Of a DNA stretch of 64,000 bases, positions 59,570 to 64,000 are shown in pieces (within the stretch, counting starts at the first letter, position 1; the number at the start of each line of letters is the position of its first letter). Both the position numbers and the translations under genes were made by a program. Source of the DNA: Lutibacter maritimus (GTDB taxonomy: Bacteria > Bacteroidota > Bacteroidia > Flavobacteriales > Flavobacteriaceae); assembly GCF_900116115.1 (NCBI RefSeq), contig NZ_FOZP01000004.1:131501-195500 (forward strand). The letters are read 5' to 3'. The notes under the pieces were generated by a model that worked only from the letters and a program-made list of their open reading frames with translations, ran no database searches and was not told the origin of the DNA.

Positions 59570-60256
59570 ATGGCTTCAACCAAAAGCACTTTAAATATTT
59601 TATTTGAAGACAATCATTTAATAATTGTTAATAAACAATCTGGTGATATTGTTCAAGGCGATAAAACTGGCGATACACCTTTAAGTGAAGTAATTAAAGA
59701 ATATATTAAAGATACTTATAACAAACCTGGTAATGTTTTTTTAGGTGTTGTACATAGGTTAGATAGACCAACTACTGGAGTTGTGGTTTTTGCAAAAACA
59801 TCCAAAGCTTTAGAGCGTTTTAATAAAATGTTGCGCAATAAAGAAGTAAATAAAACCTATTGGGCTATTGTTAAAAACTTACCAAATAAATTGGAAGATA
59901 CATTAATTGGTTTTCTGAAAAAAAATCCAAAAAATAATAAATCAACCTCTTATTCTTCTGAAATTGAAGGGAGTAAAAAAGCAACCCTACATTATAAAGT
60001 TATCAAATCTTTAGATAATTATCACTTGCTAGAAGTTGATTTAGAAACTGGTCGTCATCATCAAATTAGATGTCAACTTTCATCTATTGGTTGCCCAATT
60101 AAAGGCGATTTAAAGTACGGTTTTGATAGAAGCAATAAAGATGCAAGTATTCATTTACATGCACGTAAAATTGAATTCATTCATCCAGTTACTAAAGAAA
60201 ATATTTCATTAATAGCTCCAACACCAAAGGACCCTATTTGGAATGCTTGTAGTTAG
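59570..60256 (+). CDS. RluA-family pseudouridine synthase
   Basis: A 228-aa RNA pseudouridine synthase without the N-terminal S4 domain. The catalytic motif GVVHRLDRPTTGVVVFAKT contains Asp65; KTYWAIVKN and ETGRHHQIRCQLSSIGCPIKGD are further family motifs. Its target (rRNA or tRNA position) cannot be read from sequence. It starts 2 bp after engB. Confidence 0.93.
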   Translation: MASTKSTLNILFEDNHLIIVNKQSGDIVQGDKTGDTPLSEVIKEYIKDTYNKPGNVFLGVVHRLDRPTTGVVVFAKTSKALERFNKMLRNKEVNKTYWAIVKNLPNKLEDTLIGFLKKNPKNNKSTSYSSEIEGSKKATLHYKVIKSLDNYHLLEVDLETGRHHQIRCQLSSIGCPIKGDLKYGFDRSNKDASIHLHARKIEFIHPVTKENISLIAPTPKDPIWNACS

Positions 60257-60312: not shown

Positions 60313-60750
60313 ATGTCAAAAAAACTTATTCTTAGCGCGTTTTTGCTATGCGTTATTTCTTTAACAAATGCACAAAATTGGCTTACAGATATTGCCTCAG
60401 CAAAAGAGTTAGCCTCAAAAGAAAACAAACATATTATTCTAGTTTTTCAAGGTTCAGACTGGTGTGCGCCTTGTATAAAACTAGATAGAGAAATTTGGAG
60501 TACACCAGAATTTATAAAATATTCAAAAGAACATTTTATTATGGTAAAAGCAGATTTTCCAAGAAAAAGTAAAAATAAATTATCCGAAAATCAGCAAAAG
60601 CAAAACAATCAACTTATGGAAAATTACAATACCCAAGGTTATTTCCCGTTTGTTGCAGTACTGGATAAAAATGGAAAAATGTTAGGCAGCACAGGCTATA
60701 AAAAAACAAGTCCAACTGAATATATTAAAATACTTACATCATTTAAATAA
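60313..60750 (+). CDS. Exported thioredoxin-fold protein
   Basis: A 145-aa protein with signal peptide (MSKKLILSAFLLCVISLTNA, cleaved before Q21) and a thioredoxin fold. The active site is WCAPC (Cys51, Cys54), and the cis-proline loop is in GYFPFVAVLD. It belongs to the DUF255/thioredoxin_7-like exported reductases that act on periplasmic disulfides. It is the first gene of a tight unit with apbE, the DUF4266-like lipoprotein and the DUF3570 protein; its stop shares a base with the apbE start (TAATG). It may keep the cysteines of the small lipoprotein reduced, which is inference. Confidence 0.9.
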   Translation: MSKKLILSAFLLCVISLTNAQNWLTDIASAKELASKENKHIILVFQGSDWCAPCIKLDREIWSTPEFIKYSKEHFIMVKADFPRKSKNKLSENQQKQNNQLMENYNTQGYFPFVAVLDKNGKMLGSTGYKKTSPTEYIKILTSFK

Positions 60751-61733
60751 TGAAAAAACACCTTTTTTTAATTGTAATTCTACTGTATTCAACACAATTA
60801 TTTAGTCAACAAATACATAGAAAAACATTAAAATTAATGGGAAGCCGATTTGATATTTCGGTGGTAGCAAATGATACATTAAAAGCTTCTTATTACATTA
60901 ACTTAGCTGTTGAAGAAATTAGCCGAATTGAAAAATTAATTTCATCATGGGACCCAAATTCACAAACATCAGAAATAATTAGAAATGCTGGAATACAACC
61001 TGTAAAAGTTGATAAAGAATTGTTTGATTTAATAGAACGCTCTATAGCAATTTCAAAATTAACTGATGGTGCTTTTGACATTAGCTATGCTTCTATGGAT
61101 AAAATTTGGAAGTTTGATGGCAGTATGAAAACAATGCCTTCTGAAAAAGAAATTAAGGAATCTGTAGCTAAAGTAGGCTATAACAATATTATTCTGGATA
61201 AAGAAAACCAAACTGTTTTTCTAAAATTAAAAGGAATGAAAATTGGGTTTGGAGCCATTGGAAAAGGATATGCTGCCGACAAAGCTAAAACGTTGTTAAT
61301 TTCTGAAGGAGTTGTTGCCGGAATTATAAATGCCTCTGGCGATATGAATACTTGGGGAAAACAACCCAATGGAGATGATTGGAAAGTTGCCATTACAAAT
61401 CCACTAAATAAAAATAATGCTTTTGCATTGTTACCAATTTCTAATAGCGCAGTGGTAACTTCTGGTGATTATGAAAAATATGTGAATTTTAATGGGAAAC
61501 GCTATTCTCATATTATTGATCCAAGAACCGGATATCCGGCAAGTGATATTATTAGCGTTTCGGTTTTTGCACCAAAAGCAGAATTAGCCGATGCATTAGC
61601 AACATCCATTTTTGTAATGGGGACTGAAATTGGATTAAATAGAATTAATCAATTAAAAAATATTGAATGCATAATCATCGATTCAAAAGGTGGAATTCAC
61701 ACGTCTAACAATATAAATATTAACAAAATATGA
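60750..61733 (+). CDS. apbE: FAD:protein FMN transferase (ApbE family)
   Basis: A 327-aa periplasmic enzyme with signal peptide ending near LFSQ. ApbE enzymes attach FMN from FAD covalently to Ser/Thr of target proteins, using magnesium. Visible motifs are IGFGAIGKGYAADKA (165-178), NASGDMNTWG (194-203), the HIIDPRTGYP segment (254-263) and the metal-binding DALATS (281-286). Length is normal. No NqrC/RnfG/FMN-bind target gene lies nearby, so the acceptor may be another member of this unit. ATGA overlap with the following small gene. Confidence 0.94.
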   Translation: MKKHLFLIVILLYSTQLFSQQIHRKTLKLMGSRFDISVVANDTLKASYYINLAVEEISRIEKLISSWDPNSQTSEIIRNAGIQPVKVDKELFDLIERSIAISKLTDGAFDISYASMDKIWKFDGSMKTMPSEKEIKESVAKVGYNNIILDKENQTVFLKLKGMKIGFGAIGKGYAADKAKTLLISEGVVAGIINASGDMNTWGKQPNGDDWKVAITNPLNKNNAFALLPISNSAVVTSGDYEKYVNFNGKRYSHIIDPRTGYPASDIISVSVFAPKAELADALATSIFVMGTEIGLNRINQLKNIECIIIDSKGGIHTSNNININKI

Positions 61734-61942
61734 TTAAAAAAACTCTTTTAGCGCTCGTAATTTTATTTTCATTTAGCTCGTGCGTTGTTGTCAAAGAATA
61801 TGAAAAAGTATATTTAAATGATCCTGATATGCTCTTGGCAGATAAAAAAATAAACAAATTTGAAACGAGTTTTCAGGTTTATAGAGAAGCTGCTTCTGGA
61901 GCAAATGGCGGAAAATCAGGTGGAGGTTGTGGATGTAATTAA
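61730..61942 (+). CDS. Small DUF4266-like lipoprotein with GGGCGCN tail
   Basis: A 70-aa lipoprotein: signal with lipobox FSSC (Cys18), a short mature part (VVVKEYEKVYLNDPDMLLAD, then KINKFETSFQVYREAASG) and a glycine-rich end GKSGGGCGCN holding two cysteines. This layout fits the DUF4266 family, which is regularly found with ApbE and DUF3570 genes. Function is unknown. The CGC tail could bind metal, be modified, or exchange disulfides with the thioredoxin upstream. It overlaps apbE by 4 bp and ends 7 bp before the DUF3570 gene. Confidence 0.85.
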   Translation: MIKKTLLALVILFSFSSCVVVKEYEKVYLNDPDMLLADKKINKFETSFQVYREAASGANGGKSGGGCGCN

Positions 61943-61949
61943 TGTAATC

Positions 61950-63410
61950 ATGAAAAAATATATAGGTCTATTTATTTTATTTATTTCATTTTTTGCCTTT
62001 TCACAAAATGAAAATAATACGTATAAAAAAAGAGTTTTAGAAAATACTGAGGTTGATTTAATTTCTAGTTTTTATGGACAAGATGGAGATAACGCTGCTG
62101 TAACTGGAGGAATTGGAACTGAAAAATTAACCGATGTTGCAACTACAATTACGGTATCAATACCTTTAAATGATAATGATATTTTTACGATTGACGCAAC
62201 TATATCCGCCTATAGTTCGGCATCTTCTAGCAATCTAAATCCATTTGATGCTTCGGGAGCTTCACGTGGTGGAGATGATGATGATGATGAACACGATGAC
62301 AGAAGCGCTAAACCTACAGCTATTGGTCCAGCAACAGGAAGTCCTTGGGTTGAATCTTCAGGAGCTTCCAAAAGCGATGTTTGGGTAAATGGTGATATTG
62401 GTTATAGCCATGCTTCAGAAAATAGAAATTCAATAATTGGAGCAAACCTATCTTTTGCTAAAGAATTTGATTATACTTCTATTGGTGTTGGCGGAAATTT
62501 TACCAAACTTTTTAACGAAAAAAATACAGAAATTGGTTTAAAAGCCAATATTTATATGGATAGCTGGCAACCTGTTTATCCAACTGAAATTAAATCGTAT
62601 AAAGAAGTTAATAAAAATTTAAATGATGGTTTTTTTGAAGGAGTTGATATTTTGGACCAAAATGGTGCAATCATAAATAAAACAGGCAGTACCGTTTGGA
62701 GTCCGTTTAACACAACATTAGTTGAAAATAAATCTAGAAATACTTATTCTGCTTCCATCAGTTTCTCGCAAATATTGAGTAAAAAAGCGCAAATCTCTAT
62801 ATTTTTAGATGTTGTGCAACAAAATGGTTGGTTAGCAAACCCAATGCAACGCGTTTATTTTGGAGACAGAGCTAACTATTATATTGGAAATGCTTCAAGT
62901 ATTGCGAATTATACATCGCCAAAAAATACCGACGTGTTTCAATTGGCGGATGATATTGAGCGTTTGCCTGATACAAGATTTAAACTTCCTATTGGAGCGC
63001 GTTTTAATTACTATTTAAATGAAGTTGTTTCGCTAAGAACGTATTATAGATATTATTACGATGATTGGGGAATTACATCACATACAGCAAATATAGAGCT
63101 ACCAATTAAAATTAGTGATACGTATACATTATACCCAACATATAGATATTATACACAAACAGCTGCCGATTATTTTGCTCCGTATGAAGAATTACTTTCA
63201 ACCAGTGAATTTTATACTTCCGATTATGATTTATCAGAATTCAACGCCAATCAATTTGGTTTTGGAGTTTCTTATACCGATATATTTACAACCAGAAGAA
63301 TCTGGAAACTTGGTTTAAAAAGTATTGATTTAAAATATAGCAATTACAAAAGAAATACTGGCTTAACTGCCGGGATTATATCTGCTGGATTTAAGTTTGT
63401 AATGGATTAA
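61950..63410 (+). CDS. DUF3570-family outer-membrane beta-barrel protein
   Basis: A 486-aa protein; the start at 61950 gives a signal peptide MKKYIGLFILFISFFAFSQ. The mature protein begins with VDLISSFYGQDGDNAAVTGG (ending at residue 54) and GTEKLTD, family hallmarks, followed by an acidic loop of Asp/Glu with His115 (109-117) and then many amphipathic strands to a C-terminal ISAGFKFVMD, as in outer-membrane barrels. The family's role is unknown. The gene is last in the thioredoxin-ApbE-lipoprotein unit. The Asp-rich loop may bind metal cations. The VTGG segment loosely recalls flavinylation motifs but does not match them exactly. Confidence 0.88.
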   Translation: MKKYIGLFILFISFFAFSQNENNTYKKRVLENTEVDLISSFYGQDGDNAAVTGGIGTEKLTDVATTITVSIPLNDNDIFTIDATISAYSSASSSNLNPFDASGASRGGDDDDDEHDDRSAKPTAIGPATGSPWVESSGASKSDVWVNGDIGYSHASENRNSIIGANLSFAKEFDYTSIGVGGNFTKLFNEKNTEIGLKANIYMDSWQPVYPTEIKSYKEVNKNLNDGFFEGVDILDQNGAIINKTGSTVWSPFNTTLVENKSRNTYSASISFSQILSKKAQISIFLDVVQQNGWLANPMQRVYFGDRANYYIGNASSIANYTSPKNTDVFQLADDIERLPDTRFKLPIGARFNYYLNEVVSLRTYYRYYYDDWGITSHTANIELPIKISDTYTLYPTYRYYTQTAADYFAPYEELLSTSEFYTSDYDLSEFNANQFGFGVSYTDIFTTRRIWKLGLKSIDLKYSNYKRNTGLTAGIISAGFKFVMD

Positions 63411-63430
63411 AATCTCTTTTGAAGAAATAA

Positions 63431-63565
63431 AAAAGAGGCTGTTTTAAATGCTAACTGTGCGTCAACCTGAACTTGTTTCAGGTTCTCTAAATATTTGTAT
63501 TTACAGAATGAGATTCTGAAATAAATTCAGAATGACAAATAAAATATTTTAAAACAGCCTCTTTG
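63431..63565. repeat. Composite nested inverted repeat, also a bidirectional terminator
   Basis: Outer arms AAAGAGGCTGTTTTAAA (63432-63448) and its perfect complement (63548-63564) enclose two inner hairpins: AACCTGAA/TTCAGGTT (63464-63484) and ATTCTGAA/TTCAGAAT (63513-63533). A third CAGAAT (63504-63509) can compete with the second. It lies between convergent genes (DUF3570 and argH). The inner sequences resemble dispersed intergenic repeats known from flavobacterial genomes. Confidence 0.75.
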
Positions 63566-63569
63566 TATT

Positions 63570-64000
63570 TTATGCTTTATTTTTCTTGGCTACAATTTCA
63601 TCTAAACATAAATTCCCCACACTTCCTTTGTGCGTATGATTCACTTCTTTATTTGGATTAAAAGTACCATTATTAATATCTTTTCCTACTTGTTTATAAG
63701 CATCTCTAAACGGTGTTCCATTTTGAACAAGTTTATTAACTTCCTCAACACTAAATAAATACAAATATTTTTCTTCTTCAACAATATCGGTTCTAACTCT
63801 AATATTTTTTAATGAATAGGTTAGCATTTCTAAACAAGCCTTTAACGTTGAAAATGATGGAATTAATCCTTCTTTCAACAATTGTAAATCTCTATGATAT
63901 CCACTTGGTAAATTATTTGTTATCAAAGTAAACTCGTATGGTAACGCTTGTAATTTGTTGCATTTTCCACGAATTAATTCAAAAACATCTGGATTTTTTT
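63570..64000 (-). CDS. argH: Argininosuccinate lyase, C-terminal part (runs off the edge)
   Basis: The frame is open from the right edge to the stop at 63570, giving 143 codons of the C-terminal part. From the edge it reads KNPDVFELIRGKCNKLQALP, then ITNNLPSGYHRDLQLLKEG, matching the end of the fumarase/aspartase-type core of ArgH, followed by the helical C-terminal domain. The enzyme splits argininosuccinate to arginine and fumarate. An internal Met at 63926 is not the real start. It is convergent with the DUF3570 gene across the composite repeat. Confidence 0.93.
   Translation of the reverse strand, partial: KNPDVFELIRGKCNKLQALPYEFTLITNNLPSGYHRDLQLLKEGLIPSFSTLKACLEMLTYSLKNIRVRTDIVEEEKYLYLFSVEEVNKLVQNGTPFRDAYKQVGKDINNGTFNPNKEVNHTHKGSVGNLCLDEIVAKKNKA

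Follow-up and report, generated by a model that had tools for sequence, protein, structure and literature searches.

Four adjoining genes at 60313–63410, on the forward strand of a 64,000-nucleotide stretch of Lutibacter maritimus DNA (contig NZ_FOZP01000004.1, positions 131,501 to 195,500; the window), encode a thioredoxin-like protein, ApbE, a DUF4266 lipoprotein and a DUF3570 protein, all of them exported. Probably, though far from certainly, the DUF3570 protein is a barrel of the outer membrane that is flavinylated by ApbE and fed by a chain of thiols, with its flavin-bearing loop lying outward or in the mouth of the barrel. By sequence, the unit belongs to the ApbE/DUF3570/thioredoxin/DUF4266 system of Meheust et al. 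(2021; PMC8238504), since the same four families are clustered there; what is newly added here is that the flavin sites seem, in structure models, to lie on that face of a membrane barrel which points outward.

An earlier account of this DNA made from the letters alone (the sequence-only reading) had described four exported proteins with TAATG, ATGA and 7-bp junctions, and all of the open reading frames and junctions are present (signal peptides and the lipobox were judged by eye, with no predictor). Scored in bits against the curated Pfam family cut-offs, the thioredoxin-like protein (60313–60750; Thioredoxin_7, PF13899) reaches 56 against 27, ApbE (60750–61733), a flavin adenine dinucleotide (FAD):protein flavin mononucleotide (FMN) transferase, 287.4 against 25.6, the DUF4266 lipoprotein (61730–61942) 72.1 against 27, and the DUF3570 protein (61950–63410), of the ApbE substrate family, 142.2 against 25. 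The first two genes overlap in the TAATG at 60748–60752 and the second and third in the ATGA at 61730–61733, and seven bases separate the DUF4266 stop codon from the DUF3570 ATG at 61950. The top PDB match of ApbE is 7esa, an FMN transferase (E 1.6e-46); a crude regular expression for the ApbE histidine motif, matched by 97 of 158 proteins, was too strict, and its result was not used.

The sequence-only reading also held that no known flavoprotein target lies next to apbE, which is wrong because the adjoining DUF3570 is a published ApbE substrate: in the portions of Meheust et al. used here, where both DUF3570 and DUF4266 (PF12094, PF14086) are treated, the DUF3570 of Chlorobium luteolum receives flavin from its ApbE at two [S/T]GA[S/T] sites, as seen on ultraviolet gels (PMC8238504). 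Nor are the two families without an assigned function, as had been supposed, DUF3570 being an ApbE substrate and DUF4266 a CXC protein possibly subject to redox cycling (PMC8238504). The same source counts 316 ApbE/DUF3570/thioredoxin/DUF4266 clusters without DsbD and 285 DsbD clusters, and places the four-gene type under ‘DsbD systems’. The window unit shares with this system its four families, the CXC-tailed DUF4266, the PF13899 thioredoxin and two [S/T]GA[S/T] motifs in DUF3570. However, it has no DsbD in the cluster (like the 316 and unlike the 285), has in its loop an acidic stretch as well as one more acceptor-like site, for three in all, and reads YSSAS rather than SGAS at the position matching the first site of family f18, a family that appears to be Chlorobi-like. 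In the portions used here, the main text of Meheust et al. makes no mention of a barrel, Rieske, copper, efflux, RND, heavy metal or lipoprotein, and Huang et al. (2024; PMC11334425) do not name DUF3570, one sentence of theirs touching on the outer membrane; no printed description of a DUF3570 barrel was found in the full-text literature, in which subscription papers were mostly uncovered.

The four families travel together. Among 395 sampled Bacteroidota genomes, DUF4266 occurs in 113, DUF3570 in 118 (in 26 of 171 genera, with 67 of the 118 genomes in f18) and ApbE in 260. Every DUF4266 genome has DUF3570 (113/113) and 114 of the 118 DUF3570 genomes have ApbE (Fisher tests on co-occurrence, p 8e-94 and 1e-20, uncorrected for relatedness), and the neighbourhood survey that the sequence-only reading had proposed supports co-occurrence. 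DUF3570 stands without DUF4266 in G213, G225, G276, G346 and G362, and without a detected ApbE in G181, G213, G276 and G362; of the six genomes concerned, two (G346 and G362) fall short of 90% completeness, and the DUF3570 match of G213, a genome 99% complete, is weak. Among the best 80 of at least 575 relatives of the window DUF3570, many of them from Flavobacterium and the closest being Lutibacter records, the locus holds DUF4266 in 80, ApbE in 79 and thioredoxin in 77, the misses (both ApbE and thioredoxin in L192, thioredoxin in L214 and L228) lying where contigs stop just upstream. Given these counts, the order and adjacency of the four genes is not due to chance, and the claim that they belong together is supported.

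In a layout sample of 96 fetched regions, which includes 49 Bacteroidia-type loci as well as f18 loci, the usual Bacteroidia-type order is trx–apbE–DUF4266–DUF3570, and the fullest f18 loci run in the order TlpA-type thioredoxin, DUF4266, DUF3570, apbE, DsbD. The thioredoxin gene comes last in L094, and in G304 DUF3570 lies 41 kb away from the other three genes. An in-frame thioredoxin–ApbE fusion of 476 aa occurs in L116 (6003–7433), and in L109, L113, L121 and L122 a further gene lies between DUF3570 and ApbE, a representative of which has a NusG_II domain and, by eye, a twin-arginine-like start. Some records carry unexpected names: a Flavobacteria-type cluster (56% identity) comes from a metagenome-assembled genome titled Klebsiella pneumoniae (L227), probably a binning or naming error, and the DUF3570 proteins of L176, L202, L186 and L234, named Chlorobiota (two), KSB1 and Neomarinimicrobiota, are 56–62% identical to that of the window, which would reflect either horizontal transfer or misnamed bins.

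The L. maritimus genome has two ApbE proteins and one DUF3570. It also has three FMN_bind proteins (contigs C9, C16 and C19), and on inspection by eye the open reading frames around their genes point to NQR- and RNF-type operons. The ApbE of the unit could serve an NqrC or RnfG encoded there, its place beside DUF3570 being incidental, but the second ApbE lies about 4.4 kb from the FMN_bind gene on C16 and ApbE accompanies DUF3570 in 79 of the 80 relative loci, and we regard this as very improbable. DsbD_TM matches comprise one clear protein of 679 aa (92.5 bits) and a marginal second (28.6 against a cut-off of 27.1), on contigs C8 and C19, the window being on C10. This genome therefore offers, independently, both a candidate electron donor for the thioredoxin and further users of flavin. 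ApbE attaches FMN at a [S/T]GA[S/T]-type motif, according to the portion used here of a further study (PMC12052999), and this attachment is common to DUF3570 and to NqrC, RnfG and other FMN_bind flavoproteins; DUF3570 differs from these in its predicted membrane-barrel fold, in the flexibility of its acceptor loop and in lacking the FMN_bind domain (PF04205), which Pfam finds in none of the four unit proteins.

The candidate flavin sites of DUF3570 are concentrated in one loop (residues 91–142, from strand 3 to strand 4 of the predicted fold). We counted as acceptor-like the pattern [S/T][G/S]A[S/T], the standard published motif being [S/T]GA[S/T]. The window protein has two standard motifs, S102-G-A-S105 (62253–62264), which precedes the acidic stretch GGDDDDDEHDD (62268–62300) within the loop, and S137-G-A-S140 (62358–62369; site 2), plus the related Y88-S-S90-A91-S92 (62211–62225; site 1) at the end of strand 3. 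Site 1 aligns with the f18 sites DSVSGAS/DSVTGAS and site 2 with another f18 site; only one of the two standard motifs thus matches an f18 position, the other aligned position being SSAS. When the window protein is aligned with its 80 best relatives, no variation is seen at Y88, S90, A91 and S92 (site 1) or at S136, G138 and S140 (site 2), and 222 of 223 acceptor-like motifs fall within the stretch aligned to residues 86–143 (4,052 residues over the 81 proteins), with a single one in the remaining 34,123 residues. Two loop motifs are found in 25 of these proteins, three in 52 and four in 4. The Bacteroidia-type proteins (n = 49) have two loop sites in 37 cases, three in 5, one in 3 and none in 4. 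Among 47 f18 proteins, 31 have exactly two [S/T]GA[S/T] motifs, both in the strand 3–4 loop; in one protein such a loop pair is joined by a third motif between strands 7 and 8; 13 combine a single loop motif with one or two in the strand 1–2 region (where the alignment of the insert is rough); and 2 have a single motif. Four f18 loci (L136, L138, L142 and L147) hold two to four DUF3570 genes each, which differ in the placement of their acceptor sites.

Because a DUF3570 sequence profile found no PDB chain at E 0.1, fold comparison was used. Sixteen strands were counted in each of two AlphaFold models, which predict a closed outer-membrane barrel, and in VIA-align all 50 of the matches listed are outer-membrane barrels. 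In comparison with the barrels of BamA, PgaA, PelB and BcsC, DUF3570 is set apart by its flavin acceptor loop and by the lack of a PDB sequence match at that threshold. By our own reading of both models, the acceptor loop, in which residues 101–123 have a predicted local distance difference test (pLDDT) score below 50, emerges on the side that faces away from the N and C termini, and for this reason it is predicted to be extracellular. With the 16-strand models and the conserved gene set, the flavinylated electron route to an outer-membrane barrel that the sequence-only reading had offered as one hypothesis becomes the best reading. Some porin loops fold inward, and a long acceptor loop of low to middling confidence could do the same, so that the flavins would sit in the lumen or point towards the periplasm and take part in a reaction confined to the envelope, such as the reduction of a periplasmic oxidant or metal, no electrons crossing the outer membrane; the RND and VIT1 proteins encoded near the unit in some relatives, which handle metals at the inner membrane or in the periplasm, fit such a role. 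Against it stand the exit of the loop opposite the termini in both models and the alternative site of 13 of the 47 f18 proteins, since the loop between strands 1 and 2 shares the face of the acceptor loop, and we consider an inward position rather unlikely.

In the mechanism that we favour, with the flavins outward or in the mouth, ApbE would place FMN on two, possibly three, DUF3570 serines (Ser140, Ser105 and possibly Ser92) in the periplasm, while DUF3570 is still unfolded; the protein would next fold into its 16-stranded barrel, bringing the flavin-bearing loop to the outward face or mouth. For the electrons we infer a path from a DsbD-type protein encoded elsewhere in the genome to the periplasmic thioredoxin and on to the Cys-Gly-Cys (CGC) tail of DUF4266, a flexible thiol arm that would reduce the barrel flavins, which in turn would pass electrons on, at the outer membrane or beyond it, to an acceptor for which a metal ion is the most plausible candidate. 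A bolder version, which we put forward tentatively and which may well not hold, makes DUF3570 a cell-surface flavin array: a cytochrome-free conduit in which the thiol chain reduces two to four covalent FMNs on the outward loop, the CGC arm reaches into or through the barrel, extracellular metals or oxidants are reduced, and ApbE accepts [S/T]SA[S/T] sites too. Pfam finds no cytochrome domain in the four unit proteins, and Cytochrom_c3_2, the single cytochrome family searched for in the whole genome, has no match there. The thioredoxin has the active site GSDWCAPC (Cys51 and Cys54; codons 60463–60474), of which GSDWCxxC is kept in 125 of 127 proteins, that of the window included; its PDB relative is 2ju5 (E 3.8e-17), and its best match, NCBIfam DsbH (NF043050), stays under the cut-off at 98.7 bits against 190.

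The DUF4266 lipoprotein has, by eye, the lipobox SSC with Cys18 at 61781–61783, and its Gly-rich tail, YREAASGANGGKSGGGCGCN, ends in GGGCGCN, with Cys67-Gly-Cys69 at 61928–61936. The CGC tail is kept in all 162 DUF4266 proteins, that of the window counted, and one homologue among 120 close ones listed ends in CSCN. DUF4266 might be an assembly factor rather than a relay, one that presents DUF3570 to ApbE or anchors it, the CGC motif holding or guiding the substrate. The gene order of the Bacteroidia-type loci, with apbE, DUF4266 and DUF3570 in succession, the constant pairing of DUF4266 with DUF3570 (113/113) and an in-frame ApbE–DUF4266 fusion with a CGC tail (L234 4767–5945, 392 aa) would all suit such a factor. 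However, a lone fusion from one metagenome-assembled genome is thin, none of 162 proteins has lost either tail cysteine, a thioredoxin gene is present in 47 of the 49 Bacteroidia-type loci carrying DUF4266, and in the published experiment, in the portion of the article used here, DUF3570 is flavinylated on coexpression with ApbE, DUF4266 being unmentioned (PMC8238504); we therefore hold an assembly role to be unlikely. In L234, whose record is titled Candidatus Neomarinimicrobiota, the other two frames have no visible signal peptide, and a DsbD-profile match immediately follows DUF3570. DUF4266 was also considered as a flavin acceptor in its own right, its tail containing EAASGAN, which resembles the ApbE motif; this was rejected because [S/T]GA[S/T] occurs near the tail in none of 82 sampled DUF4266 proteins and in one of the 80 from the best-relative loci.

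Metal-linked genes adjoin the unit in some relatives. In same-strand runs around the Bacteroidia-type loci, with one representative scanned per cluster, a Rieske protein was found in 11 loci, a VIT1-family protein in 10, a response regulator in 8, a kinase in 8 and resistance–nodulation–division (RND) genes in 7. Among the 80 relative loci, 20 have a response regulator and 5 have RND efflux genes at operon-like distance, 25 in all. In 19 loci the regulator starts at most 82 bases past the end of DUF3570, and in L208, where DUF3570 is present twice, it comes after the first copy; most of these 20 loci are from Flavobacterium. In L190, L219, L240 and L241 an adaptor gene of the RND type ends 2–81 bases ahead of the thioredoxin gene, and in L235 a pump lies 110 bases after DUF3570. 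A regulator and kinase 125 bases upstream in L178 were left out of this count. The L235 pump exceeds the CusA/CzcA cut-off (1182.6 against 701.45), and that of L190, clipped by the end of the locus, stays under it at 643. Since the pumps precede the unit in some genera and follow it in others, these loci argue for a repeated association of unit and pump. A home-made profile (E 1e-40) places a pump in 20 of the 80 loci, a count in which metal and other RND pumps are unseparated and reverse-strand copies included, and in which the loci are not independent, many being from Flavobacterium. As background, at least 70 over-cut-off CusA/CzcA matches in about 109 Mb (29 genomes) correspond to roughly 0.8% per 12 kb, a hand count with rounded sizes from genomes that were picked knowing which loci held pumps and from which the density only was taken. 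The unit might then be mainly metal-handling, the CGC tail binding Cu(I) or another soft metal, the barrel moving metal and the flavin setting its oxidation state. The four adaptor genes ahead of thioredoxin, the L235 pump, the 20 response regulators and the 10 sampled VIT1 loci all speak for this; yet 55 of the 80 relative loci, and the window, have no metal-linked gene at operon-like distance, and the linked genes may merely be co-regulated, which leaves such a function improbable.

Several observations weigh against a thiol-fed, outward-facing flavin barrel. In the window, neither a DsbD gene nor any metal gene, response regulator or RND gene lies beside the four-gene unit; for this locus a metal role is, because of these missing neighbours, a lead and not a finding, and the metal hint of the sequence-only reading draws indirect support from some relatives and none from the window itself. 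The L240 adaptor passes the general RND adaptor cut-off only and falls under the metal-specific NCBIfam ones, and the regulator and kinase of L200 have their best matches in heavy-metal families, under cut-off. DUF3570 and DUF4266 occur without an adjoining ApbE in L119 and L120, and the thioredoxin is missing in L107 and L118. Foldseek TM-scores to the DUF3570 query are low (0.28–0.38 among the matches listed), and the acceptor loop is the least confident part of both AlphaFold models, for which reason it may lie either outside or in the lumen. Among the 49 Bacteroidia-type DUF3570 proteins, four are without an acceptor-like motif in the loop and three have one, with ApbE in the locus for six of these seven; the motif-free proteins (L093, L099, L105 and L114) all come from loci with ApbE, and at the acceptor positions of L093 and L099 stand ASAS and S-[S/T]-P-S-S. 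In a further 28 of the 49, the loop holds at least two sites but none of the form [S/T]GA[S/T] (L085, which is among these, has an SGAT elsewhere). As ApbE is retained beside such genes, the ApbE of this lineage may tolerate Ser for Gly, that is, [S/T]SA[S/T] sites; in another ApbE substrate, a change of Gly to Ala cuts flavinylation to about half, as given in the portion used of that study (PMC12052999).

Electron routes that cross the outer membrane by means of haem are familiar, and porin–cytochrome conduits such as MtrCAB carry electrons to the cell surface via an outer-membrane barrel. The window unit, if read correctly, would share with MtrCAB the passage of electrons to the surface through such a barrel, here known from predictions; it differs in having no cytochrome family, thiols and covalent flavin taking the place of haem. 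A thiol-driven route that ends in covalent flavins outside a barrel would thus be a different chemical solution from haem, and one common to many Bacteroidota (DUF3570 in 118 of 395 sampled genomes); if the surface array existed, many Flavobacteria and other Bacteroidota could reduce extracellular metals or other oxidants. Independently of where the flavins lie, the window is a clean case for annotating DUF3570 as an ApbE substrate and likely barrel.

Upstream of the unit, a pseudouridine synthase gene (Pfam; 59570–60256) ends 56 bases ahead of the thioredoxin gene, and downstream a minus-strand open reading frame (63570–63998) has no match in a Pfam search. A sigma-70 scan gave 17 promoter-like sites, where shuffled sequence gives an expectation of 16.9, and was not used. 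Downstream of DUF3570, at 63430–63570, lies a long near-perfect hairpin (fold z −8.3) that holds a palindromic element with CCTGAACTTGTTTCAGG. Because copies of this element occur at ten further positions of the genome (70–82% identity; 40 of 91 candidates scored), it is probably a dispersed repeat that landed in the terminator.

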